Shown piece after piece: positions 5,232 through 36,591 of a stretch of DNA of 64,000 nucleotides. The translations under genes were made by a program, and so were the position numbers. The notes beneath the pieces were generated by a model, which saw only the letters and a list, made by a program, of their open reading frames with translations, ran no database searches and was not told where the DNA came from. Source of the stretch: Amphiura filiformis (taxonomy: Eukaryota > Echinodermata > Ophiuroidea > Amphilepidida > Amphiuridae); NCBI RefSeq assembly GCF_039555335.1, contig NC_092642.1, positions 21,483,812 to 21,547,811 on the forward strand, read 5' to 3'. Position 1 is the first letter of the stretch. Each line of letters starts with the position of its first letter.

Positions 5232-5306
5232 TAGCATTAATTGGTAGTCCTCAATATGCCCCCCTCCCATCAGCAGCCAATCACAGGCGTGCACGGCTGC
5301 GATATT

Positions 5307-6500: not shown

Positions 6501-6509
6501 AAAAATTTA

Positions 6510-7839: not shown

Positions 7840-7840
7840 C

Positions 7841-8337: not shown

Positions 8338-8385
8338 GTCTAGGTACCGCAAAGCATAATGGGATACTCCCTTCAGCTGCTTTAT

Positions 8386-9701: not shown

Positions 9702-10895
9702 GAACGTTGCTCTGTTGACCTACAAAGACAAAAAATTTGGCCGATTCCATTTAGGTGCAAGTTGGGACATGTGTAAACATTAGGCAAAAAAAAAGGTGTT
9801 TGTTTACGTTTGCCCAGACACGACCGACCCAAAAAATTTAAAAAACAGCATACACTTTTTTTTTTTTTTTTTTTTTTTACAATGATATAAAAATAATGAA
9901 AACGCCAAATGACACTTGAAAGTTAATATTCCTGGCAATCACAGCTTTCATTTTTCCCATTTAGCCCTCCCCAACCATGCCAACAATATTTTGCCATCAA
10001 TCAACATCAATATAGAGAACCAAGCATGACAAGTAATATGGTCTGGGATTTTGTACTCCAGCCCGATTTTGTTATCCAAGTTAAACTTTATATGGTAAGG
10101 TTGAAATACATTCATACACTCCTATATATATCAAAGCAGCCAATCAGAAAAGTGGTAGAAGTATGCGGAGTACATTGATTGTGTATAGGCCTAATGTGCA
10201 ATCCGCTTACTATGCGCAGTGCTTTCGTACGCTATCGCATAGATTTTCCGGGCGGGTTGATGCTTTTATATTTGGTCCTATTTGCCAACATTTTTAGTGA
10301 TAGTTTTGTTATAAAAACAGCAAAAATCACATGTTTTTTTTTCTTCTCGGGTATGAAATACTACTCAAATATTGAACGCGTATTATTTGTTGCTTGAGAA
10401 AATTATACTAAATAATGCACTTGCGCTATACGCATCAACATCAGCGCGCATGTGCAATATTTTTGTCTAATTTCTCCCCCAATAAGTTATACACGATCAT
10501 TAACCTTTAATTAAAGTTGACACAAGTACAAAATGTAAGGCTGAATGTCGTATTCTCTTACCCCACTTGCTGCAACACATGTACAGATCTAAAAAAAAAA
10601 AAAAAAAAGGAAATCGACCTACCGACCCACTCCTTTCTACCCCATGTCTGGGCAAACAAATACTTTTTTTTTTTTTACAAATGAGCAAAAAAATCAGGTT
10701 TGAAAAAAATTAACCAATTTCATATTATAAGATCGTACATTGTGGCTTTAAAATGTCTGATCTGGACCACAAAATTACTGTGAGTTAGGCCTATATTCAA
10801 TAGATAGCAAAAACGCATGGATGTAACAAAATTATAGGCCTCAAAGAGAATATCGCAACACTTCAGAAATTTTAATTTGATGAGCACCACTATCA

Positions 10896-11390: not shown

Positions 11391-13588
11391 TAATAGTAAA
11401 AACATCAATTTTTTTTGTTATAGTGATAAAAATAACAAAATGCGTTAAATTTGAGCGGTCTTCACTATATCTTCAGTAGCTAGCAAAAGCGCATGAATTC
11501 AAAATATGTTAGGAAAAGGCTCGCTGTAAACACGTTTTATGAGCAGAAATATAGTGATTGAAATTAACAAAATGTCACTTGTCTTACACATAATTTTTGA
11601 TCAATGATATTCTGACTTAGGATTGTGAACAAAAGTTTTCAATTATTGTCATTAGTCAATGTCAATGATATTGTTTTTCATGCTGGTTTTGCTATTTACT
11701 GCAGATTGATCGAATGGCGAGAACGATTGCGTATTGGTGCTACGCGATTTGCGCGCATCCGTTTTACGCTTCATATGACGTACTACGGACTAGGCCTGCA
11801 TCTTTTTCAAAATAATGTCGCAACACTCTGCAGGCCTTACTGCTTGAATGTTTTTACTTGATTTGATCTCTAGAAGATAGCACATGGAGCCCAAAATATC
11901 ACCATCAATTTAATTTAATTTAAGCTATCTTCAGAAGATAGCAAAAACACGAATTTACCATGATTTTTTAACAAAAGAAAATGTCGCAAGACATGCCGTA
12001 ATTTGCTCGATTTTGGTACCCGGTATCTATTGAGCTCATGCATTGGCTTACACGGTGAAGGTTAAAATTGAAATAGGCCTATCTCGAGAATTGAATACCG
12101 TATGACGCTGAAACAAACTTTGAAAAAAAAGCCATTAGATTTCTCTATCTGTTGTTTTTAATTTTATGTATCTGAATTCGTGTGTTTTTGCTATCAACTG
12201 CCGATAGCTCAAATTTAAATGCGTAGTTGGTTGTCGTCTTTGTCTGCTGAACGAGATACATTAGATTTCGCAATCAAAAAGTGCAACCCGTAAAATAGTC
12301 CCCATAAAACGTAGAAATGGAGCTAAGTTGTTTCATTTTCTCAGCCAACGTGTGTCTAAGATACGTTTCTTTGATGCTATATTAAACATGGGATGGTTTT
12401 TATAAAATTATGTGGAGAAATAGGCCTAATTGATTTCCAATCTGTTCTGGCCCACTAATCTCGCAAATCGTGTATCGATGTAAAATCTCAAATTGAGTTT
12501 TGACTACATGATGAAATAAAAATATAGAAAAGATAATGTAAAACATGGCTTCTAGATTAGAAAGAGATGATGAATCGGGATGATATGTAAAATGCTATCT
12601 TCAGTAGATAGCGACAAAGACTTTCCCAGCACTAGCTCGCTATGCGGGCATTAATAATTCGGCCTAATGCCGAGCTATTAAAAAAGGTAAAACACAGAGA
12701 AACATGTAGGTGCGGAACGTGATGAAATATCGCATTAAAATGTCTGATCGGGACTGATGTACTAGAAAGAAAAAAATCGCCACTACATGATGAAATAAAA
12801 ATATAGAAAAGATGATGTAAAACATGGCTTCTAGATTAGAAAGAGATGATGAATCGGGATGATATGTAAAATGCTATCTTCAGTAGATAGCGACAAAAAC
12901 AACAAAAATCAAAATTATACACTAAGACTTTCCCAGCACGAGCTCGCTATGCGGGCATTAAAAAAAATCGTAATTTGGCCTAATACCGAGCTATTAAAAA
13001 AAGGTAAAAAAGAAACCAGAGAAACATGTAGGTTCGGAACGTGATGAGTCTGTAATATCGCTTCTAATCGGGATTGATGTACTAGAAAGAAAAAATTCGC
13101 CGCTACATGATGAAATAAAAATATAGAAAGATAATGTAAAACATGGCTTCTAGAGATGATGAATCAGGATGAGATGTGAAATGCTATCTTCAGTAGATAG
13201 CGACAAAAACAACAAAAATCAAAATATACCCTAAGACATTTCCAGCACAAGCTCGCTATGCGGGCATTAAAAAATCGTAATTCGGCCTAATGCCGAGCTC
13301 TTAAAAAAGATTTAAAAAATAGAGAAACATGTAGGTGCGGAACATGATGAGTCAGTAATATTGCTTTAAAATGTCTGATCGGGACCACAGAATTACTGTG
13401 AATTAGGCCTATCTTCAATAGATAGCAAAAACACATGGATGTAACAAAATTACTTAAGAAATTTTAATTTGATCTTTACTAGATAGCACCACTATTTCAT
13501 CAGTAAAAACATCGATTTATTTCGTTATAGTGATAAAAAATAACAAAATGCATTAAATTTTAGCTATTTTCAGTAGATAGCAAACGCG

Positions 13589-16500
13589 CATGAATTCAAA
13601 ATATGTTAGGAAAAGACTCGCTGTAACGTTTTATGAGCAGAAATATTTTGATTGATTTGCTATTTACTGCCGATTTATCGAATGTCGCCAGCGATTGCGT
13701 ATAAAAAACAACGCGCGACGTTGGTGCCACGCGTTATGCGCGCATCCGTTTTACACTTCATATGACGTACGGACTAGGCCTACATCTTTTCAAAATAATG
13801 TCGCAACACTATGCAGGCCTAACTGCTTGAATGTTTTTACTTGACTTGATCTCCAGAAGATAGCACAATAAATGGAGACCAAAATTCCAACATCAATTTA
13901 ATTTAAGCTATCTTCAGAAGATAGTAAAAACACGAATTTACCATGTTTTTTTAACAAAAGAAAATATCGCAAGACATGCCGTAATTTGCTCGATTTTGGT
14001 ACCCGTTGTCTATTAAGCTCATGTATTCATTTACGCAGTAAATGTTAAAATTCAAATAGGGTAGGTGCAGGTAATATGGGACAGCAGGTAATATGGGACA
14101 CCTGTTTTCATTTTAACAAAAAGTAGCTTAGAGAAGGTAAACACTTTAAGTTGATTTGTTAAGTGTTTAGAGACATCAATTGTGCTTCTAGAAATGCAGT
14201 TTTGGAGTCTGTGTATCAAACTCTTGGAAATTAATGCCAAAAAGAGTGAAATTGCCCAAAAAATTATGTCGTTTTTTGGCCTGATATAAAATCAATGACG
14301 TCACATTTTATGATTGTGTATCCAAAACTCTGGTACTGAGGGGCATTTGTCATTTTTATGATCTTTAGGTGATGGGTTAAGCTTATCAGCAGGTAAAATT
14401 CCACTGACAAGTGGCACTTTCCTTTATAAATGATTATTTTCTCTGATTTTCAACTGAATGGGTGCAGGTAATATGGGACACATAGGAAATTGTGCATTGT
14501 CAATGCGAAAAGCAAAACTATTTAGAAAATTGAATTTTCTTGTAGAAATTTGCATTTAAAATTCAAAATCATGTAACAAAAATGTTTTTAGAACAAAAGA
14601 GTGATTTTCTGAACTTTTTGATTTTCACAATAGAGATAACACAGTGTCCCATATTACCTGCACATGCAGGTAATATGGGACACTTGACGATGACGTCATT
14701 TTGACGTCATAGCGTCCAAACAAACATAAAAACAAGGTAACATTGCCTGTTTTATTAATCTTAAAGGACAGGTTGTTCATCATAACAATCTCTTGTGGGC
14801 ATATCTTCTTTAGTTTTTATGCAAATAAGCTAAACGTCCTTAATGGTCCCATATTACCTGCAGGTACCCTATCTCAAGAACGGAATACCGTATGACGCTG
14901 AAACCAACTTTGAAACAAAACCATTAGATATCACTATCTGTTATTTTTAATTTGGTACATGTTGAATTCGTGTGTTTTTGCTATCAACTGGCGATAGCTC
15001 AAATTTAAATGCGTAGTTGGTTGTCGTCTTTATCTGCTGAACGAGATACATAAGTTTTCGCAATCAAAAGTGCAACCCGTAAAATAGTCCCCATAAAACG
15101 TAGAAATTGAGCTAAGTTGTTTCATTTTCTCAGCCAACGTGTGTCTAAGATACGTTTCTTTGATGCTATATTAAACATGGGATGGTTTTTATGAAATTAT
15201 GTGCAGAAATAAATGATTTCCAATCTGTTATGGCCCACTAATCGCGCAAATCATGTATCGATGTAAAATCTCAAATTGAGTTTTGACTACATGATGAAAT
15301 ATATAAATATATAGAGAAAATAATGTAAAACATAGCTTCTAGAGTAGAAAGAGGTGATGAATCGGGATGAGATGTGAAATAATATCTTCAGTAGATAGCG
15401 ATAAAAACATAACAAAAATCAAAATATACCCTAAGACTTTCCCAGCACGAGCTCAGTTTTGCGGGCATTTGAAAAAAATCGTAATTCGGCCTAATGCCGA
15501 GCTATTAAAAAAGGTAGAAAACAGAGAAACATGCAGGTGCGGAACATGATGAGTCTGTAATATCGCTTTAAAATGTCTGATCGGGACTAATGTACGGTAC
15601 TAGAAAGAAAAAATTCGCCGCTACATGATGAAATAAAAATATAGAAAAGATACTGTAAAACATGGCTTCTAGAGTAGAAAGAGATGATGAATCGGGATGA
15701 GATGTGAAATGCTATCTGCAGTATAGATAGCGACAAAAACATAACAAAATCAAAATATACCCTAAGACTTTCCCAGCACGAGCTCGCTATGCGGGCATTA
15801 AAAAAAAATCGTAATTTGGCCTAATACCGAGCTATTAAAAAAGGTAAAAAAGAAACCAGAGAAACATGTATAGGTTCGGAACGTGATGAGTCTGTAATAT
15901 CGCTTCTAATCGGGATTGATGTACTAGAAAGAAAAAATTCGCCGCTACATGATGAAATAAAAATATAGAAAGATAATGTAAAACATGGCTTCTAGAGATG
16001 ATGAATCGGGATGAGATGTGAAATGCTATCTTCAGTAGATAGCGACAAAACATAACACAAATCAACATAATATCCTAAGACATTTCCAGCACAAGCTCGC
16101 TATGCGGGCATTAAAAAAATCGTAATTCGGCCTAATGCCGAGCTCTTAAAAAAGATTAAAAAAATAGAGAAACATGTAGGTGCGGAACATGATGAGTCTG
16201 TAATATTGCTTTAAAATATCTGATCGGGACCACAGAATTACTGTGAATTAGGCCTATCTTCAATAGATAGCAAAAACACATGGATGTAACAAAATTGTAG
16301 GCCTACCGAAATACACTTAAGAAATTTTAATTTGATCTTTACTAGATAGCACCACTATTTCATCAGTAAAAACATCGATTTATTTCGTTATAGTGATAAA
16401 AAATAACAAAATGCATTAAATTTTAGCTATTTTCAGTAGATAGCAAACGCGCATGAATTCAAAATATGTTAGGAAAAGACTCGCTGTAACGTTTTATGAG

Positions 16501-19500
16501 CAGAAATATTTTGATTGATTTGCTATTTAGGCCTACTGCCGATTTATCGAATGTCGCCAGCGATTGCGTATAAAAAACAACGCGCGACGTTGGTGCCACG
16601 CGTTATGCGCGCATCCGTTTTACACTTCATATGACGTACGGACTAGGCCTACATCTTTTCAAAATAATGTCGCAACACTATGCAGGCCTAACTGCTTGAA
16701 TGTTTTTACTTGACTTGATCTCCAGAAGATAGCACAATAAATGGAGACCAAAATTCCAACATCAATTTAATTTAAGCTATCTTCAGAAGATAGTAAAAAC
16801 ACGAATTTGCCATGTTTTTTTAACAAAAGAAAATATCGCAAGACATGCCGTAATTTGCTCGATTTTGGTACCCGTTGTCTATTAAGCTCATGTATTCATT
16901 TACGCAGTAAATGTTAAAATTCAAATATCTCAAGAACGGAATACCGTATGACGCTGAAACCAACTTTGAAACAAAACCATTAGATATCACTATCTGTTAT
17001 TTTTTAATTTGGTACATGTTGAATTCGTGTGTTTTTGCTACCAACTGGCGATAGCTCAAATTTAAATGCGTAGTTGGTTGTCGTCTTTATCTGCTGAACG
17101 AGATACATAAGTTTTCGCAATCAAAAAGTGCAACCCGTAAAATAGTCCCCATAAAACGTAGAAATTGAGCTAAGTTGTTTCATTTTCTCAGCCAACGTGT
17201 GTCTAAGATACGTTTCTTTGATGCTATATTAAACATGGGATGGTTTTTATGAAATTATGTGCAGAAATAAATGATTTCCAATCTGTTATGGCCCACTAAT
17301 CGCGCAAATCATGTATCGATGTAAAATCTCAAATTGAGTTTTGACTACACGATGAAATATATAAATATATAGAGAAAATAATGTAAAACATAGCTTCTAG
17401 AGTAGAAAGAGGTGATGAATCGGGATGAGATGTGAAATAATATCTTCAGTAGATAGCGATAAAAACATAACAAAAATCAAAATATACCCTAAGACTTTCC
17501 CAGCACGAGCTCAGTTTTGCGGGCATTTGAAAAAAATCGTAATTCGGCCTAATGCCGAGCTATTAAAAAAGGTAGAAAACAGAGAAACATGCAGGTGCGG
17601 AACATGATGAGTCTGTAATATCGCTTTAAAATGTCTGATCGGGACTAATGTACGGTACTAGAAAGAAAAAATTCGCCGCTACATGATGAAATAAAAATAT
17701 AGAAAAGATACTGTAAAACATGGCTTCTAGAGTAGAAAGAGATGATGAATCGGGATGAGATGTGAAATGCTATCTGCAGTATAGATAGCGACAAAAACAT
17801 AACAAAAATCAAAATATACCCTAAGACTTTCCCAGCACGAGCTCGCTATGCGGGCATTAAAAAAAATCGTAATTTGGCCTAATACCGAGCTATTAAAAAA
17901 GGTAAAAAAGAAACCAGAGAAACATGTATAGGTTCGGAACGTGATGAGTCTGTAATATCGCTTCTAATCGGGATTGATGTACTAGAAAGAAAAAATTCGC
18001 CGCTACATGATGAAATAAAAATATAGAAAGATAATGTAAAACATGGCTTCTAGAGATGATGAATCGGGATGAGATGTGAAATGCTATCTTCAGTAGATAG
18101 CGACAAAACATAACACAAATCAACATAATATCCTAAGACATTTCCAGCACAAGCTCGCTATGCGGGCATTAAAAAAATCGTAATTCGGCCTAATGCCGAG
18201 CTCTTAAAAAAGATAAAAAAATAGAGAAACATGTAGGTGCGGAACATGATGAGTCTGTAATATTGCTTTAAAATGTCTGATCGGGACCACAGAATTACTG
18301 TGAATTAGGCCTATCTTCAATAGATAGCAAAAACACATGGATGTAACAAAATTGTAGGCCTACCGAAATACACTTAAGAAATTTTAATTTGATCTTTACT
18401 AGATAGCACCACTATTTCATCAGTAAAAACATCGATTTATTTCGTTATAGTGATAAAAAATAACAAAATGCATTAAATTTTAGCTATTTTCAGTAGATAG
18501 CAAACGCGCATGAATTCAAAATATGTTAGGAAAAGACTCGCTGTAACGTTTTATGAGCAGAAATATTTTGATTGATTTGCTATTTAGGCCTACTGCCGAT
18601 TTATCGAATGTCGCCAGCGATTGCGTATAAAAAACAACGCGCGACGTTGGTGCCACGCGTTATGCGCGCATCCGTTTTACACTTCATATGACGTACGGAC
18701 TAGGCCTACATCTTTTCAAAATAATGTCGCAACACTATGCAGGCCTAACTGCTTGAATGTTTTACTTGACTTGATCTCCAGAAGATAGCACAATAAATGG
18801 AGACCAAAATTCCAACATCAATTTAATTTAAGCTATCTTCAGAAGATAGTAAAAACACGAATTTGCCATGTTTTTTTAACAAAAGAAAATATCGCAAGAC
18901 ATGCCGTAATTTGCTCGATTTTGGTACCCGTTGTCTATTAAGCTCATGTATTCATTTACGCAGTAAATGTTAAAATTCAAATATCTCAAGAACGGAATAC
19001 CGTATGACGCTGAAACCAACTTTGAAACAAAACCATTAGATATCACTATCTGTTATTTTTAATTTGGTACATGTTGAATTCGTGTGTTTTTGCTACCAAC
19101 TGGCGATAGCTCAAATTTAAATGCGTAGTTGGTTGTCGTCTTTATCTGCTGAACGAGATACATAAGTTTTCGCAATCAAAAGTGCAACCCGTAAAATAGT
19201 CCCCATAAAACGTAGAAATTGAGCTAAGTTGTTTCATTTTCTCAGCCAACGTGTGTCTAAGATACGTTTCTTTGATGCTATATTAAACATGGGATGGTTT
19301 TTATGAAATTATGTGCAGAAATAAATGATTTCCAATCTGTTATGGCCCACTAATCGCGCAAATCATGTATCGATGTAAAATCTCAAATTGAGTTTTGACT
19401 ACATGATGAAATATATAAATATATAGAGAAAATAATGTAAAACATAGCTTCTAGAGTAGAAAGAGGTGATGAATCGGGATGAGATGTGAAATAATATCTT

Positions 19501-20560
19501 CAGTAGATAGCGATAAAAACATAACAAAAATCAAAATATACCCTAAGACTTTCCCAGCACGAGCTCAGTTTTGCGGGCATTTGAAAAAAATCGTAATTCG
19601 GCCTAATGCCGAGCTATTAAAAAAGGTAGAAAACAGAGAAACATGCAGGTGCGGAACATGATGAGTCTGTAATATCGCTTTAAAATGTCTGATCGGGACT
19701 AATGTACGGTACTAGAAAGAAAAAATTCGCCGCTACATGATGAAATAAAAATATAGAAAAGATACTGTAAAACATGGCTTCTAGAGTAGAAAGAGATGAT
19801 GAATCGGGATGAGATGTGAAATGCTATCTGCAGTATAGATAGCGACAAAAACATAACAAAAATCAAAATATACCCTAAGACTTTCCCAGCACGAGCTCGC
19901 TATGCCGACATTAAAAAAAATCGTAATTTGGCCTAATACCGAGCTATTAAAAAAGGTAAAAAAGAAACCAGAGAAACATGTAGGTTCGGAACGTGATGAG
20001 TCTGTAATATCGCTTCTAATCGGGATTGATGTACTAGAAAGAAAAAATTCGCCGCTACATGATGAAATAAAAATATAGAAAGATAATGTAAAACATGGCT
20101 TCTAGAGATGATGAATCGGGATGAGATGTGAAATGCTATCTTCAGTAGATAGCGACAAAACATAACACAAATCAACATAATATCCTAAGACATTTCCAGC
20201 ACAAGCTCGCTATGCGGGCATTAAAAAAATCGTAATTCGGCCTAATGCCGAGCTCTTAAAAAAGATAAAAAAAATAGAGAAACATGTAGGTGCGGAACAT
20301 GATGAGTCTGTAATATTGCTTTAAAATGTCTGATCAGGACCACAGAATTACTGTGAATTAGGCCTATCTTCAATAGATAGCAAAAACACATGGATGTAAC
20401 AAAATTGTAGGCCTACCGAAATACACTTAAGAAATTTTAATTTGATCTTTACTAGATAGCACCACTATTTCATCAGTAAAAACATCGATTTATTTCGTTA
20501 TAGTGATAAAAATAACAAAATGCATTAAATTTTAGCTATTTTCAGTAGATAGCAAACGCG
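13589..20560. repeat. homogeneous block of ~2.05 kb units
   Basis: Units starting at 13589, 16452 and 18509 are nearly identical (period ~2050-2057 once the 811 bp insertion is subtracted). Shared private variants include GTACGGTACTAG at 15593, repeated at the equivalent places near 17653 and 19707. This points to recent unequal exchange or amplification. Confidence 0.9.
14059..14869. mobile_element. 811 bp TA-flanked TIR element with six internal motifs
   Basis: The element is inserted in an array unit at AAATA|TCTC with a TA duplication. Its ends GGGTAGGTGCAGGTAATATG and the inverted GGGTACCTGCAGGTAATATG match. The 17-mer GCAGGTAATATGGGACA occurs at 14067, 14084, 14464, 14645 (inverted), 14666 and 14845 (inverted, one mismatch). 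There is no transposase, so it must be mobilised in trans. Confidence 0.9.
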
Positions 20561-22617
20561 CATGAATTCAAAATATGTTAGGAAAAGACTCGCTGTAACG
20601 TTTTATGAGCAGAAATATTTTGATTGATTTGCTATTTACTGCCGATTTATCGAATGTCGCCAGCGATTGCGTATAAAAAACAACGCGCGACTTTGGTGCC
20701 ACGCGTTATGCGCGCATCCGTTTTACACTTCATATGACGTACGGACTAGGCTTACATCTTTTCAAAATAATGTCACAACACTATGCAGGCCTAACTGCTT
20801 GAATGTTTTTACTTGACTTGATCTCCAGAAGATAGCACAATAAATGGAGACCAAAATTCCAACATCAATTTAATTTAAGCTATCTTCAGAAGATAGTAAA
20901 AACACGAATTTACCATGTTTTTTTAACAAAAGAAAATATCGCAAGACATGCCGTAATTTGCTCGATTTTTGTACCCGTTGTCTATTAAGCTCATGTATTC
21001 ATTTACACAGTAAATGTTAAAATTCAAATATCTCAAGAACGGAATACCGTATGGCGCTGAAACCAACTTTAAAACAAAGCCATAAGATTTCCCTATCTGT
21101 TGTTTTTAATTTGGTGTATCTGAATTCGTGTGTTTTTGCTATCAACTGCCGATAGCTCAAATTTAAATGCGTAGTTGGTTGTCGTCTTTGTCTGCTGAAC
21201 GAGATACATTAGATTTCGCAATCAAAAAGTGCAACCCGTAAAATAGTCCCTATAAAACGTAGAAATTGAGCTAAGTTGTTTCATTTTCTCAGCCAACGTG
21301 TGTCTAAGATACGTTTCTTTGATGCTATATTAAACATGGGATGGTTTTTATAAAATTATGTGGAGAAATAAATGATTTCCAATCTGTTCTGGCCCACTAA
21401 TCGCGCAAATCATGTATCGATGTAAAATCTCAAATTGAGTTTAGACTACATGATGAAATAAAAGTATAGAAAAGATAATGTAAAACATGGCTTCTAGATT
21501 AGAAAGAGATGATGAATCGGGATGATATGTAAAATGCTATCTTCAGTAGATAGCGACAAAAACAACAAAAATCAAAATATACCCTAAGACTTTCCCAGCA
21601 CTAGCTCGCTATGCGAGCATTAATAATTCGGCCTAATGCCGAGCTATTAAAAAAGGTAAAAACAGAGAAACATGTAGGTGCGGAACATGACGAGTCTGTA
21701 ATATCGCATTAAAATGTCTGATCGGGACTGATGTACTAGAAAGAAAAAATTCGCCGCTACATGATGAAATAAAAATATAGAAAAGATGATGTAAAACAGC
21801 TTCTAGAGTAGAAAGAGATGATGAATCGGGATGAGATGTGAAATGCTATCTTCAGTAGATAGCGACAAAAACATAACAGAAATCAAAATATACCCTAAGA
21901 CTTTCCCAGTACGAGCTCACTGTGCGGGCATTTAAAAAATCGTAAGTCGGCCTAATGCCGAGCTATTAAAAAAGGTAAAAAAACAGAGAAACACGTAGGT
22001 GCGGAACGTGATGAGTCTGTAATATCGCATTAAAATGTCTGATCTGGACCACAAAATTACTGTGAATTAGGCCTATAGGCCTAGGCCCTATTCAATAGAT
22101 AGAAAAAACGCATGGATGTAACAACATTATAGGCCTACCGAAAGAGAATATCGCAACACTTCAGAAATTTTAATTTGATCTTTAGCTATCATAATAGTAA
22201 AAACATCAATTTTTTTGTTATAGTGATAAAAATAACAAAATGCGTTAAATTTGAGCGGTCTTCACTATATCTTCAGTAGCTAGCAAAAGCGCATGAATTC
22301 AAAATATGTTAGGAAAAGGCTCGCTGTAAACACGTTTTATGAGCAGAAATATAGTGATTGAAATTAACAAAATGTTGTCTTACACAATTTTTGATCAATG
22401 ATATTCTGACTTAGGATTGTGAACAAAAGTTTTCAATTATTGTCATTAGTCAATGGTATTGTTTTGTTTCTCATGCTGGTTTTGCTATTTACTGCAGATT
22501 GATCGAATGGCGCGAGCGATTGCGTATTGGTGCTACGCGATATGCGCGCATCCGTTTTACGCTTCATATGACGTACTACGGACTAGGCCTGCATCTTTTT
22601 CAAAATAATGTCGCAAC

Positions 22618-22926
22618 CCCAGACAAACAAGAACCTAGACCTATAACTTTGGTTAGCGTAGTGAAGTCAACACTGCTTAGCAACGATTTTGATAAGGACG
22701 CAACCCGGACGCAAACAAGCAGACATGTTCGCGTCTACAGAACACGTTGCATTTGACGCGGGCGATAACGGCGCAGCAATCACGCAAACGATCGCGTTTT
22801 TCGTTCCAGACATGAACGCTTATTTCTCCGCGTCCGACCACCCGACCAAAATCACCTTGGATACGTGGCTTCACCTACTGCCACGGTTAGGGATGGGCAG
22901 TTACAGGTCTAGGTGGTATGTCTATG
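22618..22926. mobile_element. 309 bp hAT-like MITE
   Basis: It interrupts an array unit with a perfect 8 bp duplication GTCGCAAC (22610-22617, 22927-22934). Its ends share an imperfect inverted repeat around AGACA..ACCTAGACCT..TAAC. It is markedly GC- and CpG-richer than the array. Confidence 0.8.
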
Positions 22927-24742
22927 GTCGCAACACTCTGCAGGCCTTACTGCTTGAATGTTTTTACTTGATTTGATCTCTAGAAGATAGCACATGGAGA
23001 CCAAAATATCACCATCAATTTAATTTAATTTAAGCTATCTTCAGAAGATAGCAAAAACACGAATTTACCATGATTTTTTAACAAAAGAAAATATCGCAAG
23101 ACATGCCGTAATTTGATCGATTTTGGTACCCGGTATCTATTGAGCTCATGCATTGACTTACACGGTGAAGGTTAAAATTGAAATATCTCGAGAATTGAAT
23201 ACCGTATGACGCTGAAACAAACTTTGAAAAAAAAACCATTAGATTTCTCTATCTGTTGTTTTTATTTTGGTGTATCTGAATTCGTGTGTTTTTGCTATCA
23301 ACTGCCGATAGCTCAAATTTAAATGCGTAGTTGGTTGTCGTCTTTGTCTGCTGAACGAGATACATTAGATTTCGCAATCAAAAAGTGCAACCCGTAAAAT
23401 AGTCCCCATAAAACATAGAAATTGAGCTAAGTTGTTTCATTTTCTCAGCCAACGTGTGTCTAAGATACGTTTCTTTGATGCTATATTAAACATGGGATGG
23501 TTTTTATGAAATTATGTGCAGAAATAAATGATTTCCAATTGTTCTGGCGGACTAATCGAGCAAATCATGTATCGATGTAAAATCTCAAATTGAGTTTTGA
23601 CTACATGATGAAATATATAAAATATATAGAGAAAATAATGTAAAACATGGCTTCTAGAGTAGAAAGAGGTGATGAATCGGGATGAGATGTGAAATAATAT
23701 CTTCAGTAGATAGCGATAAAAACATAACAAAAATCAAAATATACCCTAAGACTTTCCCAGCACGAGCTCGGTTTTGCGGGCATTTGAAAAAAAATCGTAA
23801 TTCGGCCTAATGCCGAGCTATTAAAAAAGGTAGAAAACAGAGAAACATGTAGGTGCGGAACATGATGAGTCTGTAATATCGCTTTAAAATGTCTGATCGG
23901 GACTAATGTACTAGAAAGAAAAAAATCGCCGCTACATGATGAAATAAAAATATAGAAAAGATACTGTAAAACATGGCTTCTAGAGTAGAAAGAGATGATG
24001 AATCGGGATGAGATGTGAAATGCTATCTTCAGTAGATAGCGACAAAAACATAACAAAAATCAAAATATACCCTAAGACTTTCCCAGCACGAGCTCGCTAT
24101 GCGGGCATTAAAAAAAATTGGCCCAATACCGAGCTATTGAAAAAGGTAAAAAACAGAGAAACATGTAGGTTCGGAACGTGATGAGTCTGTAATATCGCTG
24201 CACTAGAAAGAAAAAATTCGCCGCTACATGATGAAATAAAAATATAGAAAAGATACTGTAAAACATGGCTTCTAGAGTAGAAAGAGATGATGAATCGGGA
24301 TGAGATGTGAAATGCTATCTTCAGTAGATAGCGACAAAAACATAACACAAATCAACATATATCCTAAGACTTTTCCAGCACAAGCTCGCTATGCGGACAT
24401 TAAAAAAAAATCGTCATTCGGCCTAATGCCGAGCTCTTAAAAAAGATTTTAAAAAATAGAGAAACATGTAGGTGCGGAACATGATGAGTCTGTAATATTG
24501 CTTTAAAATGTCTGATCGGGACCACAGAATTACTGTGAATTAGGCCTATCTTCAATAGATAGCAAAAACACATGGATGTAAGAAAATTGTAGGCCTACCG
24601 AAATACACTTAAGAAATTTTAATTTGATCTTTAGTAGATAGCACCACTATCTCAACAGTAAAAACATCGATTTATTTCGTTATAGTGATAAAAATAACAA
24701 AATGCATTAAATTTTAGCTATTTTCAGTAGATAGCAAACGCG

Positions 24743-27700
24743 CATGAATTCAAAATATGTTAGGAAAAGACTCGCTGTAAACACATTTTATGAGCAGAAA
24801 TATTTTGATTGATTTGCTATTTACTGCAGATTTATCGAATGTCGCAAGCGATTGCGTATAAAAAACAACGTGCTATATTAAACATGGGGGATGGTTTTTA
24901 TAAAATTATGTGGAGAAATAAATGATTTCCAATCTGTTATGGGCCACTAATCGCGCAAATCATGTATCGATGTAAAATCTCAAATTGAGTTTTGACTACA
25001 TGATGAAATAAAAATATAGAAAAGATAATGTAAAACATGGCTTCTCGATTAGAAAGAGATGATGAATCGGGATGATATGTAAAATGCTATCTTCAGTACA
25101 TAGCGACAAAAACATAACAAAAATCAAAATATACCCTAAGACTTTCCCAGCACTAGCTCGCTATGCGGGCATTAATAATTCGGCCTAATGCCGAGCTATT
25201 AAAAAAGGTAAAAAACAGAGAAACATGTAGGTGCGGAACGTGATGAGTCTGTAATATCGCATTAAAATGTCTGATCGGGACTGATGTACTAGAAAGAAAA
25301 AATTCGCTGCTACATGATGAAATAAAAATATAGAAAAGATAATGTAAAACATAGCTTCTAGAGTAGAAAGAGATGATGAATCGGGATGAGATGTGAAATG
25401 CTATCTTCAGTAGATAGCGACAAAAACATAACAGAAATCAAAATATACCCTAAGACCTTCCCAGTACGAGCTCATTCTGCGGGCATTTAAAAAATCGTAA
25501 GTCGGCCTAATGCCGAGCTATTAAAAAAGGTAAAAAAACAGAGAAACACGTAGGTGGGGAACGTGATGAGTCTGTAAATCGCATTAAAATGTCTGATCTG
25601 GACCACAAACTTACTGTGAGTTAGGCCTATATTCAATAGACTTTCCCAGCACTAGCTCGCTATGCGGGCATTAATAATTCGGCCTAATGCCGAGCTATTA
25701 AAAAAGGTAACAAACAGAGAAACATGTAGGTGCGGAACGTGATGAGTCTGTAATATCGCATTAAAATGTCTGATCGGGACTGATGTACTAGAAAGAAAAA
25801 ATTCGCCGCTACATGATGAAATAAAAATATAGAAAAGATGATGTAAAACATAGCTTCTAGATTAGAAAGAGATGATGAATCGGGATGAGATGTGAAATGC
25901 TATCTTCAGTAGATAGCGACAAAAACATAACAGAAATCAAAATATACCTTAAGACTTTCCCAGTACGAGCTCACTGTGCGGGCATTAAAAAAAATCGTAA
26001 GTCGGCCTAATGCCGAGCTATTATTAAAAAGGTAAAAAACAGAGAAGCACGTAGGTGCGGAGCGTGATGAGTCTGTAATATCGCATTAAAATGTCTGATC
26101 TGGACCACAAAATTACTGTGAGTTAGGCCTATATTCAATAGATAGCAAAAACGCATGGATGTAACAAAATTATAGGCCTACCGAAAGAGAATATCGCAAC
26201 ACTTTAGAAATTTTAATTTGATCTTTAGTAGATAGCACCACTATCATAACAGTAAAAACATCAATTTTTCTGTTATTGTGATAAAAATAACAAAATGCGT
26301 TAAATTTGAGCGATCTTCACTATCTTCAGTAGCTAGCAAAAGCGCATGAATTCAAAATATGTTAGGAAAAGGCTCGCTGTAAACACGTTTTATGAGCAGA
26401 AATATAGTGATTGAAATTAACAAAATGTTGTCTTACACAATTTTTGATCAATAATATTCTGACTTAGGATTGTGAACAAAAGTTTTCAATTATTGTCATT
26501 AGTCAATGGTATTGTTTTGTTTCTCATGCTGGTTTTGCTATTTACTGCAGATTGATCGAATGGCGCGAGCGATTGCGTATTGGTGCTACGCGATATGCGC
26601 GCATCCGTTTTACGCTTCATATGACGTACGGACTAGGCCTGCATCTTTTTCAAAATAATGTCGCAACACTCTGCAGGCCTTACTGCTTGAATGTTTTTAC
26701 TTGATTTGATCTCTAGAAGATAGCACATGGAGACCAAAATATCACAATCAATTTAATTTAATTCAAGCTATCTTCAGAAGATAGCAAAAACACGAATTTA
26801 CCATGATTTTTTAACAAAAGAAAATGTCGCAAGACATGCCGTAATTTGCTCGATTTTGGTACCCGGTATCTATTGAGCTCATGCATTGACTTACACGGTG
26901 AAGGTTAAAATTGAAATATCTCAAGAATTGAATACCGTATGACGCTGAAACAAAATTTGAAAAAAAAACGCCATTAGATTTCTCTATCTGTTGTTTTAAA
27001 TTTGGTGTATCTGTATTCGAGTGTTTTTGCTATCAACTGCCGATAGCTCAAATTTAAATGCGTAGTTGGTTGTCGTCTTTGTCTGCTGAACGAGATACAT
27101 TAGATTTCGCAATCAAAAAGTGCAACCCGTAAAATAGTCCCCATAAAACGTAGAAATTGAGCTAAGTTGTTTCATTTTCTCAGCCAACGTGTGTCTGAGA
27201 CACGTTTCTTTGATGCTATATTAAACATGGGATGCTTTTTATGAAATTATATGGAGAAATAAATGATTTCCAATCTGTTCTGGCCCACTAATCGCGCAAA
27301 TCATGTATCGATGTAAAATCTCAAATTGAGTTTTGACTACATGAAGAAATAAAAATATAGAAAAGATAATGTAAAACATGGCTTCTAGATTAGAAAGAGA
27401 TGATGAATCGGGATGATATGTAAAATGCTATCTTCAGTAGATAGCGACAAAAACATAACAAAAATCAAAATATACCCTAAGACTTTCCCAGCACTAGCTC
27501 GCTATGCGGGCATTAATAATTCGGCCTAATGCCGAGCTATTAAAATAGGTAAAAAACAGAGAAACATGTAGGTGCGGAACGTGATGAGTCTGTAATATCG
27601 CATTAAAATGTCTGATCGGGACTGATGTACTAGAAAGAAAAAATTCACCGCTACATGATGAAATAAAAATATAGAAAAGATGATGTAAAACATAGCTTCT

Positions 27701-29580
27701 AGAGTAGAAAGAGATGATGAATCGGATGAGATGTGAAATGCTATCTTCAGTAGATAGCGACAAAAACATAACAGAAATCAAAATATACCCTAAGACTTTC
27801 CCAGTACGAGCTCACTGTGCGGGCATTAAAAAAAATCGTAAGTCGGCCTAATGCCGAGCTATTAAATAAGGTAAAAAAACAGAGAAGCACGTAGGTGCGG
27901 AGCGTGATGAGTCTGTAATATCGCATTAAAATGTCTGATCTGGACCACAAAATTACTGTGAGTTAGGCCTATATTCAATAGATAGCAAAAACGCATGGAT
28001 GTAACAAAATTATAGGCCTACCGAAAGAGAATATCGCAACACTTTAGAAATTTTAATTTGATCTTTAGTAGATAGCACCACTATCATAACAGTAAAAACA
28101 TCAATTTTTCTGTTATTGTGATAAAAATAACAAAATGCGTTAAATTTGAGCGATCTTCACTATCTTCAGTAGCTAGCAAAAGCGCATGAATTCAAAATAT
28201 GTTAGGAAAAGGCTCGCTGTAAACACGTTTTATGAGCAGAAATATAGTGATTGAAATTAACAAAATGTTGTCTTACACAATTTTTGATCAATAATATTCT
28301 GACTTAGGATTGTGAACAAAAGTTTTCAATTATTGTCATTAGTCAATGGTATTGTTTTGTTTCTCATGCTGGTTTTGCTATTTACTGCAGATTGATCGAA
28401 TGGCGCGAGCGATTGCGTATTGGTGCTACGCGATATGCGCGCATCCGTTTTACGCTTCATATGACGTACGGACTAGGCCTGCATCTTTTTCAAAATAATG
28501 TCGCAACACTCTGCAGGCCTTACTGCTTGAATGTTTTTACTTGATTTGATCTCTAGAAGATAGCACATGGAGACCAAAATATCACAATCAATTTAATTTA
28601 ATTTAAGCTATCTTCAGAAGATAGCAAAAACACGAATTTACCATGATTTTTTAACAAAAGAAAATGTCGCAAGACATGCCGTAATTTGCTCGATTTTGGT
28701 ACCCGGTATCTATTGAGCTCATGCATTGACTTACACGGTGAAGGTTAAAATTGAAATATCTCAAGAATTGAATACCGTATGACGCTGAAACAAACTTTGA
28801 AAAAAAAACGCCATTAGATTTCTCTATCTGTTGTTTTAAATTTGGTGTATCTGTATTCGAGTGTTTTTGCTATCAACTGCCGATAGCTCAAATTTAAATG
28901 CGTAGTTGGTTGTCGTCTTTGTCTGCTGAACGAGATACATTAGATTTCGCAATCGAAAAGTGCAACCCGTAAAATAGTCCCCATAAAACGTAGAAATTGA
29001 GCTAAGTTGTTTCATTTTCTCAGCCAACGTGTGTCTGAGACACGTTTCTTTGATGTTATATTAAACATGGGATGCTTTTTATGAAATTATATGGAGAAAT
29101 AAATGATTTCCAATCTGTTCTGGCCCACTAATCGCGCAAATCATGTATCGATGTAAAATCTCAAATTGAGTTTTGACTACATGAAGAAATAAAAATATAG
29201 AAAAGATGATGTAAAACATAGCTTCTAGAGTAGAAAGAGATGATGAATCGGGATGAGATGTGAAATGCTATCTTCAGTAGATAGCGACAAAAACATAACA
29301 GAAATGAAAATATACCCTAAGACTTTCCCAGTACGAGCTCACTGTGCGGGCATTAAAAAAAATCGTAAGTCGGCCTAATGCCGAGCTATTAAAAAAGGTA
29401 AAAAAACAGAGAAGCACGTAGGTGCGGAGCGTGATGAGTCTGTAATATCGCATTAAAATGTCTGATCTGGACCACAAAATTACTGTGAGTTAGGCCTATA
29501 TTCAATAGATAGCAAAAACGCATGGATGTAACAAAATTATAGGCCTACCGAAAGAGAATATCGTAACACTTTAGAAATTT
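24743..29580. repeat. second homogeneous block, ~1.84 kb units
   Basis: Units at 26345 and 28185 are 1840 bp apart and nearly identical. They share variants such as GTAGGTGCGGAGCGTG and GTATTCGAGTG that are absent from the 13-20 kb block. Hybrid junctions flank it (24870, 25640, 29581). Confidence 0.85.
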
Positions 29581-29740
29581 TAAATGATTTCCAATCTGTT
29601 CTGGCCCACTAATCGCGCAAATCATGTATCGATGTAAAATCTCAAATTGAGTTTTGACTACATGATGAAATAAAAATATAGAAAAGATAATGTAAAACAT
29701 GGCTTCTAGATTAGAAAGAGATGATGAATCGGGATGATAT

Positions 29741-30096
29741 TAGTGCTGTAATCGATAAGCTTTCTGGGTATCGATATGTCGGGAGGCAAACATCCGACAT
29801 GTCGATACTATTATCGATACTCACGCAGTTTGAAACACGGATTTGAGTTTACCAATTTTATTATCAGTAAGTTCCAGAAACAAGTTAACAACAAGTGTAT
29901 TGAAGCCTAACAGCTAAAACTACATGGATCATGCATCAAACAAACGAAAGCGGTATTGCAAATCCGCAATTTTACATGACTTTGGCAATGTGTGCCATGT
30001 CGTTTGTGTATCGATACTGACATTGAGTGTTTCGACATGTCGGAAGTCTATGTATTTTCCGACTATCGATACTTACGACAATCGATTACAGCACTA
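29741..30096. mobile_element. 356 bp hAT-like MITE
   Basis: It has inverted ends TAGTGCTGTAATCGATAAG / ATCGATTACAGCACTA and a 7 bp duplication ATGATAT at both sides of the insertion in an array unit. The interior repeats TATCGAT and CGACATGTCG. Confidence 0.8.
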
Positions 30097-30257
30097 ATGA
30101 TATGTAAAATGCTATCTTCAGTAGATAGCGACAAAAACATAACAAAAATCAAAATATACCCTTAGACTTTCCCAGCACTAGCTCGCTATGCGGGCATTAA
30201 TAATTCGGCCTAATGCCGAGCTATTAAAAAAGGTAAAAAACAGAGAAACATGTAGGT

Positions 30258-32688
30258 GGTCGAATCCAACGAAAAGTGTACACGGCATGTTCAGGGCCAT
30301 AACTTAAAAGTATTAATCAATTGGCATTCGTTTTTGTATTGTGTTTATTCGCCTTGATCATACGCTTCGCGCCATATATAATAAGACCCCTTCTGTGAAA
30401 AACTTAGACACAGAGACCCAAAACATGCTATTTTTACCCATTTTTTCAAAATATTTCTTAAAGTATTTTTAAAAACATCTAAATCAGTTATGAAAAGAAG
30501 TCGTTGGATTGAATCTAAATTGATTTCCTGAAAGGTGAGTATTCAAAGATTGCCTGTTCAATTTTTCACATATTTGTACATAATTATGAATTTTTTGTGA
30601 TAATTTTTTGAGTGGTATATTTTTTACATTACCTACGAATACAATTTTTCATAGCACTAGATATATCTTTAAAAAATGGAAATCACTAATAAATGCACAA
30701 TTGATACAAGCTTTGATATGTCCAATGCTGAAATGCATTGCATTCGGACATCTTTATTATTGTGTTTAGCTGCCAGAAATTCTAAATGGCACAAAGGTAG
30801 GTTTGGTAAAAAATATGCATTACCTCCGAATATATGTTAAAAGCTGTGTCATTTCCACACAGTGAGAGAATAGTAAACAATAGTTAAGCAATAGGTGCAG
30901 GGTAATACACTCTTTATTTCTACCAAGTTTCAATAGCCTGCGTTTAAATATTTCTGAGATGTCAACAATAAAAGCAAGTATTCGTAGGTAAATTTCGGTA
31001 ACCGAATGTTACCTACGAATACAATTTGACATCATGACAGTATTGTGAAACACCGCCATTCATGCCAATGCCCATATTGGTACATAACGAAGGCCTTTAT
31101 GTTTGCTATCAAATCATATGTCAATGAAAGTTGCGAATTCACATACATGCCCACCATGCAAAAGTGAATACGGCTTAATTGTTGAAAAATATGTACTGAA
31201 ATAGGCGACGGTCTGCTCATTTGAAAGAAAAATCAGATTCAAAGAAGATTAGAAGGGATAAATACTTGAATTTGTCAACTGTCATGTGTGCTTCATTTTA
31301 AATGTTTACCGACCTTCTGGTTTCTGAGTAATTTGTGTCCAAATTGATTTATTCGAAGGTAACTTTTGACGTTTTCGCTAAGGTTACCTACGAATACCAT
31401 GGAAAAAAACGACTGTTCTCATTGTCTCATGATCTAGACAACACAGTGATGGACCCTGGTATAAAGCTAATTGTAGTTGCCCTCAAACGAAAGGCCACAA
31501 GACGTAACTGACTCCAAGGTGGACTTCACAAGTCTGCAATAACGGTTTTAAGCGATTTGTGTGCAATTAAGCAAATTAAAGTCATTTTAGTGCCTTTGTT
31601 TCTTACTTCAATCCTCTTTCAACCGCTGTGAACCGACATTATTAATACATGATAGGGTCTAAAGTATCAATAAACGTACATAAAGAAACTAATACATTCA
31701 AAGTGCTTTATAAAATGAAGTTTTGATTGCGATATCCACCAAAAGTCGAATTCTTACCTACAAATACTGAAATGTTACTTACGAATACAGCATAATAAAT
31801 GACATGTGTAATGAAGTGCCCCAACCAATGGAAATTAATTGTCAAAACTTTAAGCGGTACCCCAGGACACTATTATTACCCATATACGGATTCATTCAAC
31901 AATTATTTATTATGTAAAATTGCTGATTAACTACTTGTATATCAAAATAAAGTGGTCAAAATCTTGCTAAAAGCATCAAAAAAATTTTGAACTAAGGTAA
32001 TAGCATTTATTCATTTGGACGTACCATCTGAAAGAGATCTAAAAACTACCATTTTATTAATTCATTACTATAATAGCAAAATTTAAACCTCTAAACTCAA
32101 TATAGATGTTGTTAAATCGCTCATGTTACCTACGAATACCCGGGTTTCTTCACCTTTTCATTGTATAAAGCGTTAGGTGTATGCGTATAATTCCTAATAT
32201 TCTTGAAAACATATATCCTACTCGTTCTTATACAATGTGTAAATTGATTCATACTCATTTGATAAATAAAATACAGAAACTGACCTAAACTTCATTTTCA
32301 AAAATAAACTAGCATAAATTGACTAAGATCATATTGATCGCTTTATAAAAATAAAAACAAATATTTTCTGGTTGAGCTAGCATTTTCCTGACACCCTGCG
32401 GTCTACATTACACGAAAAAAGGCGTTAATGGGAATATTCCATTTGTTTTAGGTTGATTAGTATTGCGATAGTGAAAGCATCCTAGTGGTATTCGTAGGTA
32501 ACATTGGGTTTTGATATCACATTTACTATCACACGTCCTGGATTTATTTTTCAAGATTAGTAATGGCACTTTTGGTTCCTATAAGGCCAATATGTCATCA
32601 ATCAATGGGCAAAAGGAAAAAATTGTGGAGACATTTTTATTTCGGACTTTTATTTTTGGCCCGTGGACACTTTTAGTTGGATTCGACC
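30258..32688. mobile_element. 2.4 kb TIR element with ten TTACCTACGAATAC motifs
   Basis: The ends GGTCGAATCCAACGAAAAGT and inverted GGTCGAATCCAACTAAAAGT match over ~30 bp. A 4 bp AGGT duplication flanks the insertion in the array. The 14-mer TTACCTACGAATAC, or a 1-2 base variant, is at 30629, 30820, 30978 (inv), 31009, 31349 (inv), 31384, 31754, 31775, 32126 and 32488 (inv). I see no protein-coding domain. Confidence 0.85.
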
Positions 32689-35600
32689 AGGTGCGGAACG
32701 TGATGAGTCTGTAATATCGCATTAAAATGTCTGATCGGGACTGATGTACTAGAAAGAAAAAATTCGCCGCTACATGATGAAATAAAAATATAGAAAAGAT
32801 GATGTAAAACATAGCTTCTAGAGTAGAAAGAGATGATGAATCGGGATGAGATGTGAAATGCTATCTTCAGTAGATAGCGACAAAAACATAACAGAAATCA
32901 AAATATACCCTAAGACTTTCCCAGTACGAGCTCACTGTGCGGGCATTAAAAAAAATCGTAAGTCGGCCTAATGCCGAGCTGTTAAAAAAGGTAAAAAAAC
33001 AGAGAAGCACGTAGGTGCGGAGCGTGATGAGTCTGTAATATCGCATTAAAATGTCTGATCTGGACCACAAAATTACTGTGAGTTAGGCCTATATTCAATA
33101 GATAGCAAAAACGCATGGATGTAACAAAATTATAGGCCTACCGAAAGAGAATATCGCAACACTTTAGAAATTTTAATTTGATCTTTAGTAGATAGCACCA
33201 CTATCATAACAGTAAAAACATCAATTTTTCTGTTATTGTGATAAAAATAACAAAATGCGTTAAATTTGAGCGATCTTCACTATCTTCAGTAGCTAGCAAA
33301 AGCGCTTGAATTCAAAATATGTTAGGAAAAGGCTCGCTGTAAACACGTTTTATGAGCAGAAATATAGTGATTGAAATTAACAAAATGTTGTCTTACACAA
33401 TTTTTGATCAATAATATTCTGACTTAGGATTGTGAACAAAAGTTTTCAATTATTGTCATTAGTCAATGGTATTGTTTTGTTTCTCATGCTGGTTTTGCTA
33501 TTTAGATCGATTGATTGATCGAATGGCGCGAGCGATTGCGTATTGGTGCTACGCGATATGCGCGCATCCGTTTTACGCTTCATATGACGTACGGACTAGG
33601 CCTGCATCTTTTTCAAAATAATGTCGCAACACTCTGCAGGCCCTACTGCTTGATTGTTTTTACTTGATTTGATCTCTAGAAGATAGCACATGGAGACCAA
33701 AATATCACCATGAATTTAATTTAATTTAAGCTATCTTCAGAAGATAGCAAAAACACGAATTTACCATGATTTTTTAACAAAAGAAAATGTCGCAAGACAT
33801 GCCGTAATTTGCTCGATTTTGGTACCCGGTATCTATTGAGCTCATGCATTGACTTACACGGTGAAGGTTAAAATTGAAATATCTCGAGAATTGAATGCCG
33901 TATGACGCTGAAACAAACTTTGAAAAAAAGCCATTAGATTTCTACATCTGTTGTTTTTAATTTGGTGTATCTGAATTCGTGTGTTCTTGCTATCAACTAC
34001 CGAAAGAGAATATCGCAACACTTCAGAAATTTTAATTTGATCTTTAGTAGATAGCACCACTATCATAATAGTAAAAACATCAATGTTTTTGTTATAGTGA
34101 TAAAAATAACAAAATGCGTTAAATTTGAGCGATCTTCACTATATCTTCAGTAGCTAGCAAAAGCGCATGAATTCAAAATATGTTAGGAAAAGGCTCGCTG
34201 TAAACACGTTTTATGAGCAGAAATATAGTGATTGAAATTAACAAAATGTTATCTTACACAATTTTTGATCAATAATAATCTGACTTAGGATTGTGAACAA
34301 AAGTTTTCAATTATTGTCATTAGTCAATGGTAGGCCTATTGTTTTGTTTCTTATGCTGGTTTTGCAATTTACTACAGATTGATCGAATGGCGCGAGCGAT
34401 TGCGTATTGGTGCTACGCGATATGCGCGCATCCGTTTTACGCTCATATGACGTACGGACTAGGCCTGCATCTTTTTCAAAATAATGTCGCAACACTCTGC
34501 AGGCCTTACTGATTGAATGTTTTTACTTGATTTGATCTCTAGAAGATAGCACATGGAGACCAAAATATCACCATCAATTTAATTTAATTTAAGCTATCTT
34601 CAGAAGATAGCAAAAACACGAATTTACCATGATTTTTAACAAAAGAAAATGTCGCAAGACATGCCGTAATTTGCTCGATTTTGGTACCCGGTATCTATTG
34701 AGCTCATGCATTGACTTACACGGTGAAGGTTAAAATTGAAATATCTCGAGAATTGAATACCGTATGACGCTGAAACAATTTTGAAAAAAAGCCATTAGAT
34801 TTCTCCATCTGTTGTTTTTAATTTGGTGTATCTGAATTCGTGTGCTTTTGCTATCAACTGCCGATAGCTCAAATTTAAATGCGTAGTTGGTTGTCGTCTT
34901 TGTCTGCTGAACGAGATACATTAGATTTCGCAATCAAAAAGTGCAACCCTTAAAATAGTCCCCATAAAACGTAGAAATTGAGCTAAGGTGTTTCATTTTC
35001 TCAGCCAACGTGTGTCTAAGATACGTTTCTTTGATGCTATATTAAACATGGGATGGTTTTTATAAAATTATGTGGAGAAATAAATGATTTCCAATCTGTT
35101 CTGGCCCACTAATCGCGCAAATCATGTATCGATGTAAAATCTCAAATTGAGTTTTGACTACATGATGAAATAAAAATATAGAAAAGATAATGTAAAACAT
35201 GGCTTCTAGATTAGAAAGAGATGATGAATCGGGATGATATGTAAAATGCTATCTTCAGTAGATAGCGACAAAGACTTTCCCAGCACTAGCTCGCTATGCG
35301 GGCATTAATAATTCGGCCTAATGCCGAGCTATTAAAAAGGTGAAAAACAGAGAAACATGTAGGTGCGGAACGTGATGAGTCTGTAATATCGCATTAAAAT
35401 GTCTGATCGGGACTGATGTACTAGAAGGAAAAAATTCGCCGCTACATGATGAAATAAAAATATAGAAAAGATGATGTAAAACATAGCTTCTAGAGTAGAA
35501 AGAGATGATGAATCGGGATGAGATGTGAAATGCTATCTTCAGTAGATAGCGACAAAAACATAACAGAAATCAAAATATATACCCTAAGACGTTCCCAGTA

Positions 35601-36083
35601 CGAGCTCACTGTGCGGGCATTTAAAAATCGTAAGTCGGCCTAATGCCGAGCTATTAAAAAAGGTAAAAAAACAGAGAAACACGTAGGTGCGGAACGTGAT
35701 GAGTCTGTAATATCGCATTAAAATGTCTGATCTGGACCACAAAATTACTGTGAGTTAGGCCTATAGGCCCTATTCAATAGATAGCAAAAACGCATGGATG
35801 TAACAAAATTATAGGCCTACCGAAAGAGAATATCGCAACACTTCAGAAATTTTAATTTGATCTTTAGTAGATAGCACCACTATCATAATAGTAAAAACAT
35901 CAATTTTTTTGTTATAGTGATAAAAATAACAAAATGCGTTAAATTTGAGCGGTCTTCACTATATCTTCAGTAGCTAGCAAAAGCGCATGAATTCAAAATA
36001 TGTTAGTAAAAGGCTCGCTGTAAACACGTTTTATGAGCAGAAATATAGTGGTTGAAATTAACAAAATGTTGTCTTACACAATT

Positions 36084-36591
36084 AGAGAATAAATGGTAGG
36101 ATTTTGTCTTTTGCCTATACAATATCGTGTCATAATGGATGGGCTGGCCAATATTTTGAGTAGTGGATGCCGGCGCAGCCGGTATCCACTACGATAAAAA
36201 TATTGGCCAGCCCATCCATTATGACACGATATTGATAGGCAAAAGACAAAATCTATCATTTATTCTCATTCTTATTCAGTTTTTATGTAATTTTTGCGAG
36301 AAAAACTGCCTTGTTTCAGAAAAAAATAAAGTTACTTTTGTGAGGACATCCCCGTTGTTTTAAATGAACGAAACCATCACGAACATCTAAGCCGCCGAAT
36401 CGCGTTCTTAGTTCTCGCACGTGTATTACGCGAACGCATTATCGCGCGATCATTGAGGAGCAACAAGCGTGCCGCCGTTGCGTGGAGGCGCGCGCCCTGA
36501 CTAATATCACTATCAACTATTGTGAGATATTATACACCAAAAAACCAATCAAATTACGTGAATTCTTTACAAGACGCACTCATTGAATAAG
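36084..36591. mobile_element. ~508 bp insertion in an array unit
   Basis: The array sequence ACACAATTTTTGATC is split, with ATT at both junctions. The left part is a 183 bp near-perfect palindrome. The right part is CpG-rich with no recognisable coding sequence. Confidence 0.6.
36085..36267. repeat. 183 bp near-perfect palindrome
   Basis: The outer words GAGAATAAATG/CATTTATTCTC, then AATATCGTGTCATAATGGAT and its complement, then GGGCTGGCCAATATTTT and its complement, close on a CCGGCGCAGCCGG centre. Both strands give short ORFs that merely mirror each other. Confidence 0.9.

Follow-up and report, generated by a model that had tools for sequence, protein, structure and literature searches.

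The 64,000-nucleotide stretch of Amphiura filiformis DNA analyzed here (NC_092642.1, positions 21,483,812-21,547,811; hereafter the window) contains a long tandem array, a dead mariner-type transposase gene, several TA-targeting elements and many copies of the palindromic octamer TAGGCCTA. A preliminary description of the same DNA had proposed that this octamer is the scar left at TA sites when a cut-and-paste transposon is excised. Our findings support this proposal through the recurrence of clean 6-bp gains among array copies, the presence of an element (E2) in the TA where a different copy has the scar, and a coding test in the mariner remnant, within the limits that we infer the step from filled site to scar and that 2 of 8 comparable loci vary otherwise. 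All counts come from this single window, and Rfam and tRNA searches of it gave no match.

The octamer occurs 48 times in 64 kb, whereas 100 dinucleotide shuffles averaged 0.45 copies and never held more than 2, none reaching 48, which bears out the earlier claim that the word is very common across the window. It is also the commonest palindromic octamer of the window, the runner-up occurring 16 times (array copies included). Of these 48 copies, 37 fall within positions 9171-44600, in or beside the array, and many of them are duplicates; merging array copies with the same flanks, a grouping of our own, left 21 distinct loci. Outside the array (positions 1-9170 plus 44600-64000; 28,570 bases), we found 11 copies, or 0.385 per kb over 28.6 kb, where Markov models of orders 1-4 expected 0.27, 0.28, 0.50 and 1.18. 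The Markov comparison called for in the preliminary description, run here within the window, therefore showed that the octamer does not occur at its expected frequency. An order-5 model, which already contains most of the word, expected 5.9, and 60 order-3 simulations of the same sequence gave a mean of 0.52 and a maximum of 3. Outside the array, the octamer is by far the most over-represented word of the form TA-NNNN-TA (11 versus 0.28 expected), followed by TAAGCTTA (5 versus 0.48).

The near-identical units of the array allowed us to compare the same site with and without the octamer (Table 1). An all-against-all alignment of the window yielded 583 alignments with 182 indel events of 4-12 bp, which formed 45 clusters by length and flank, where a single place may yield several clusters. 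Five clusters, whose flanks are unrelated, had gained GGCCTA (12074, 12421, 16528 [= 18585], 22076 and 34331), and no other insert recurred at more than two of the 45, those recurring twice being simple AAAG, ATAT and AAAT. Three of these loci had been read before as gains, and the readings held up: TTTACTG at 13665 and 20637 is a clean empty counterpart of 16528 and 18585, with 24822 likewise empty; GGTATTG copies are clean empty sites for 34331 in all but 11661; and 12421 shows a clean 6-bp gain not only against 15210 but against all its other copies, with one neighboring substitution. The loci at 12074 and 22076 extend these examples. At 22076, a difference of exactly 6 bp separates 3 of the 13 other copies; the remaining 10 lack 13 bp. 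The TAGGCCC variant reported at two positions was present at 35764 and also at 40507, but the second position is 38097 rather than 38100; this family is empty at 10794, 26132, 27972, 29499 and 33092.

Eight octamer loci have paralogues, and the expectation that these would show a clean 6-bp gain at TA stood for five of them; 10786 is invariant, and 13775 and 16298 vary otherwise. Given that 13775 varies by substitution, the octamer there may stem from a point change. The octamers of the 10786 and 16298 families are probably older than the array. For 14 of the 48 octamers, there was no copy to compare, although the left flank of one of these, 25622, clearly places it in the 10786 family.

Table 1. 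Positions and states of the octamer, its variants and the elements discussed in the text, numbered from the first base of the window.
Feature	Position	Strand	Observation
Tandem array	roughly 9,200-44,600		units of ~2 kb with nested 310-330 bp sub-repeats
TAGGCCTA, putative scar	12074-12081		same TA empty in 10/10 other array copies, filled by E2 in one more
TAGGCCTA, putative scar	12421-12428		11/11 other copies empty, one neighboring substitution (ATTG/AATG)
TAGGCCTA, putative scar	16528-16535		3/3 other copies empty (13665, 20637, 24822), duplicate aside
TAGGCCTA, putative scar	18585-18592		second copy of the 16528 scar; single event, duplicated unit
TAGGCCTA, putative scar	22076-22083		adjoins TAGGCCC scar; exactly 6 bp more than 35764, 38097, 40507
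TAGGCCTA, putative scar	34331-34338		7/8 other copies empty; eighth (11661) differs in another way
TAGGCCCTA, putative 2+3 nucleotide scar	35764-35772		TAGGCCC, 7-bp gain at TA; same event at 38097, 40507
Invariant octamer locus	10786-10793		identical in 13/13 other array copies compared
Octamer varying by substitution	13775-13782		12 other copies: TAGGCCTG in 9, TAGGCTTA in 1, identical in 2
Octamer locus	16298-16305		10/12 other copies identical; one TAGGCCTC, one TAGGCGGCCTA
TAGGCCTA in mariner remnant	52994-53001	+	extra codons TAG GCC between GGT and TAC
Mariner-type remnant	52766-53377	+	dead transposase gene, long inverted repeats
E2, non-autonomous element	14059-14869		811 bp; TA on both sides, ends GGG...CCC
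Empty TA homologous to 12074 and E2 site	16926-16927; also 18982, 21029, 23184, 26917, 28757
Further empty TA of E2/12074 site	33880, 34742, 37066, 38886
TAGGCCTA without paralogue	2312-2319; also 2767, 3060, 3935, 9594, 10186	
TAGGCCTA without paralogue, 3' part of window	45637, 46393, 47758, 47925, 50650, 50999
TAGGGCCTA	51071-51079		likely 3+2 nucleotide scar, no paralogue
TAGGGCCTA	51174-51182		likely 3+2 nucleotide scar, no paralogue
E3	47066-50937		~3.9 kb; GGTTTTCCCAGAGT ends adjoining TA, duplication TA or TATA
E4, second TA-targeting element	39859-40425		567 bp; CCGTAAAATGGGG ends, in array, empty copies exist

The octamer in the mariner remnant provided an independent comparison, in sequence that is not related to the array. 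The frame at 52994 reads GGT TAG GCC TAC AAT (KG-stop-A-YNAQ), and a protein search with the remnant found 19 relatives, 15 of which were aligned. The two extra residues are absent from all 15, in which the residue that follows is Y in 11, N in 3 and C in 1, so that the octamer at 52994 is likewise a TA plus GGCCTA. The remnant matched no Pfam family at E up to 1 and gave only weak matches to PDB sequences (DegQ, 0.16; SETMAR, 0.2).

The preliminary description had predicted an element with GG...CC ends and a TA duplication, and E2 is such an element, found at a TA that carries the octamer in another copy. Paired with ten empty array copies, the flanks of E2 overlap by exactly 2 bp, TA. Both of its ends read GGGTA[G/C][G/C]TGCAGGTAATATGGGAC, with 2 mismatches in the first 14 bases of the terminal inverted repeats, and a 17-bp motif occurs six times within it (five copies are exact and the sixth has a single mismatch; four lie on the plus and two on the minus strand). 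Judged by sequence, these motifs look like repeated transposase-binding sites. A single TA thus exists in three states across the array copies: empty, scarred (12074) and filled (E2). In a tree of the flanks of 11 copies, the E2 copy falls in a four-unit clade (100/100) whose other members are empty, and the 12074 copy stands apart. Because the two copies lie in different clades, E2 was most simply inserted independently, and the 12074 scar is another event. The chance that one insertion lands on one of 5-9 scar loci among the 186 TAs per unit is 0.027-0.048, and the position of E2 at a TA scarred in another copy is suggestive of an element origin, not proof of it.

Several assignments of E2 to known families were considered and rejected. 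The piggyBac/Kolobok type targets TTAA, and the empty site of E2 is TTCAAATATCTC; its duplication is the TA in AAATATCT and not the AT within AATT of ISL2EU, nor is it the CWG of NuwaI. The one E2 frame searched against Pfam (77 residues, one of three of at least 60) had no match at E up to 0.1, and a piece of the E2 sequence had no match in the open-licence PMC literature. Relatives of E2 were found neither by motif pattern in genome_contigs nor by spaced motif pattern in viral_contigs, two collections not meant to hold animal genomes. An 18-base match to E2 in a viral contig was taken as chance, the longest window match being 28 bases and lying elsewhere; the contig region in question reads like a viral structural gene.

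We consider it probable, at roughly three chances in four, that TAGGCCTA marks the repaired excision site of a Tc1/mariner-type cut-and-paste transposon with a TA target and GG(G)...(C)CC ends. The gains among array copies are clean, and E2 combines a TA duplication with GGG...CCC ends at a TA scarred elsewhere; from these observations, we infer that an element of this kind made the scars. Insertion of such an element would duplicate TA. On excision, the transposase would cut one strand at the tip of the element and the opposite strand two nucleotides further in, leaving each flank with a 3' GG overhang. Given that GG cannot pair with GG, end joining would fill in both overhangs to give TA-GG-CC-TA, a 6-bp palindromic gain independent of the flank. 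If one of the ends were cut three nucleotides in, the product would be TAGGGCCTA or TAGGCCCTA. The 2-nucleotide stagger, the repair route and the superfamily are thus proposed as parts of one putative pathway. For Sleeping Beauty and mariner, the literature describes a first nick three nucleotides inside the element and 3' overhangs that become footprints by end joining (PMC7827188).

The 9-letter variants agree with this pathway in their composition. There are six in the window with a middle G or C (TAGGGCCTA/TAGGCCCTA; three loci by our own grouping), including 2 copies of TAGGGCCTA outside the array versus 0.16 expected, and none with a middle A or T; TAGGACCTA/TAGGTCCTA and TAGGGCCCTA occur 0 times. 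This composition is indicative of element ends that begin with GGG, like those of E2. The GG and CC letters of the scar also fit the GGG...CCC ends of E2, yet the insertion of E2 at 14059 and the 12074 scar go back to different events. R-TA-Y is weakly preferred, being present in 34 of 48 half-sites at 24 loci (P = 0.003, uncorrected, for one of six positions examined). Outside the array, words with one mismatch to the octamer numbered 8 versus 7.5 expected by chance; a steady supply of scars predicts about 18.5 (P = 0.005, resting on 11 loci). This lack of enrichment suggests that most scars are young or come from a burst. The sole raised one-mismatch form, TAGGGCTA/TAGCCCTA (4 versus 0.67), could also be a 3+1 scar. 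The array loci at 10786, 13775 and 16298 are probably older than the array, so the activity was not only recent.

Several observations weigh against an excision origin. The filled and scarred copies at the three-state site lie in different clades, so no excision was caught directly. One clear E2-type element is present in the window versus about 21 octamer loci, and the 8 of 11 frames of at least 60 residues tested in E2 and E3 yielded no transposase for an element of this type. Classic Tc1-type scars retain the overhang of one end only, and the single-end forms TAGGTA/TACCTA are hardly enriched (17 versus 12.7). The octamer flanks have no strong target motif, old mutated scars are missing, so that a recent burst is needed, and 2 of the 8 comparable loci (13775 and 16298) vary by substitution or otherwise.

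The paucity of visible elements, about 1 to 21 octamer loci, would also be expected if a transposase or recombinase inserted the 6-bp unit as such, placing joined ends (GG plus CC, no interior) into TA with an identical product. We regard this as unlikely, given that a full element with matching ends sits at one scar site in another copy and that the 2+3 nucleotide variants are readily accounted for by variation in cutting and repair; we know of no precedent for the insertion of joined element ends without their interior. The constancy of the insert and the lack of a strong flank motif would likewise suit TA breaks repaired by a host enzyme with a fixed filler, programmed or accidental, without any transposon. 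However, a constant four-letter core needs a sequence donor, and an element that has these ends and targets TA is present, making a host filler very improbable in our judgment.

We also considered that the octamer could be an iterated palindrome maintained or propagated by selection, by methylation-linked repair or by a protein that binds it, in the manner of HIP1, the highly iterated palindrome of cyanobacteria, which is an over-represented exact octamer. The strong excess of the exact word, with none for one-mismatch words, is in keeping with this idea, but the word arose by clean 6-bp insertion rather than point changes at five loci, the substitutions at 13775 and 16298 indicate that it is not strictly kept, and one copy lies inside a dead transposase gene. 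We therefore hold this origin to be very unlikely as well. Inflation of the count by the tandem array is real to the extent that so many octamers at 9171-44600 are duplicates, but chance or inflation as the whole explanation is refuted by the 11 copies outside the array (0.3-1.2 expected, orders 1-4) and by five independent clean gains.

Other elements in the window serve mainly as points of reference. E4 is a comparison case and not the source of the GGCC scars; its own two-ended scar would be TACCGGTA, which occurs twice in the window (6583 and 40918), once in non-array sequence versus 0.15 expected. The excess of TAAGCTTA outside the array perhaps reflects scarring by a different TA element whose ends are AG...CT. 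E3 carries sub-terminal inverted repeats and has no known empty site; of its 8 frames of at least 60 residues, the 7 searched against Pfam (E up to 0.1) lacked a match. The stretch 769-1504 was rejected as a second TA-GG...CC-TA element because its inverted repeat extends to CATGG and GTTGAAG flanks both sides; we read it as a 0.7-kb inverted-repeat element with CATGGTAGGTATTATAGAAGGAG ends, which we take to be P-element-like, and a 7-8 bp duplication (GTTGAAG). Further insertions in array units are a 508-bp segment with AATT-like borders (36084-36591, including a long hairpin at 36085-36267) and a fragment of a long interspersed nuclear element (LINE)-type retrotransposon (40709-43358; RVT_1, zf-RVT). 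In viral_contigs, at least 120 loci have two octamers within 46 bp, several of them tandem repeats; two contigs (L086, 451-472; L034, 1449-1470) share an identical TAGGCCTA pair with starts 14 bases apart and similar flanks, perhaps a binding site.

Cut-and-paste elements leave few countable traces once they are gone. It is about an even chance, in our view, that one group of GGG...CCC-ended TA transposons was excised so often and so recently that few words of the genome are as strongly over-represented as TAGGCCTA, which at about 0.4 per kb would far exceed the number of intact elements. The word would then be a countable log, across the genome, of excisions in the germline. For a genome of 1 Gb that resembles the window throughout, this density would mean several hundred thousand scars. 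With a uniform palindromic scar, a word search would be enough to count excisions, date them and locate them; the rate of excision could be told apart from copy number, and the mutation load (6-bp gains at TA) that vanished elements have left in an animal genome would become visible. Such scars would keep adding in-frame stops (TAG GCC) or small insertions at TA, and an excision origin would explain an over-represented word that otherwise resembles a binding site.

Among known systems, the octamer is closest to the footprints of Tc1, Tc3, Sleeping Beauty and ZB, with which it shares the TA target and duplication, cut-and-paste movement and end joining. Published work gives Tc1/mariner footprints of 2-4 bp (PMC7913693) and end-joining repair of 3' overhangs (PMC7913693, PMC7827188, PMC2874221). 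In the window, the footprint between the TAs is 4 bp (GGCC) at five loci, within that range, and 5 bp at one, just outside it. ZB footprints are described as 0-3 bp long and that of Sleeping Beauty is given as TAG(T/A)CTA, both differing from the GGCC scar. NuwaI ends usually start GGG, as E2 does, but the target duplications, CWG for NuwaI and AT within AATT for ISL2EU, differ from TA (PMC4482050). The consulted part of a paper on pogo-like elements names no GGG-ended TA family (PMC7325037), and open-licence PMC titles and abstract openings, among the matches listed, include none that treats TAGGCCTA as a scar. HIP1 and the octamer are both over-represented palindromes, but the octamer visibly originates in an insertion of 6 bp at TA. 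The Minos footprint is a 6-bp gain made up of TA plus four letters of one end, so that its net gain at TA equals that of the octamer; Minos keeps letters of one end, whereas the 9-letter variants here better fit two plus three letters of both. Footprints of Tc1/mariner elements are textbook knowledge. Unlike those footprints, the scar here has two letters from each end in one uniform palindrome and ranks among the most over-represented words of the window, a combination absent from the open-licence PMC titles and abstract openings among the matches listed.

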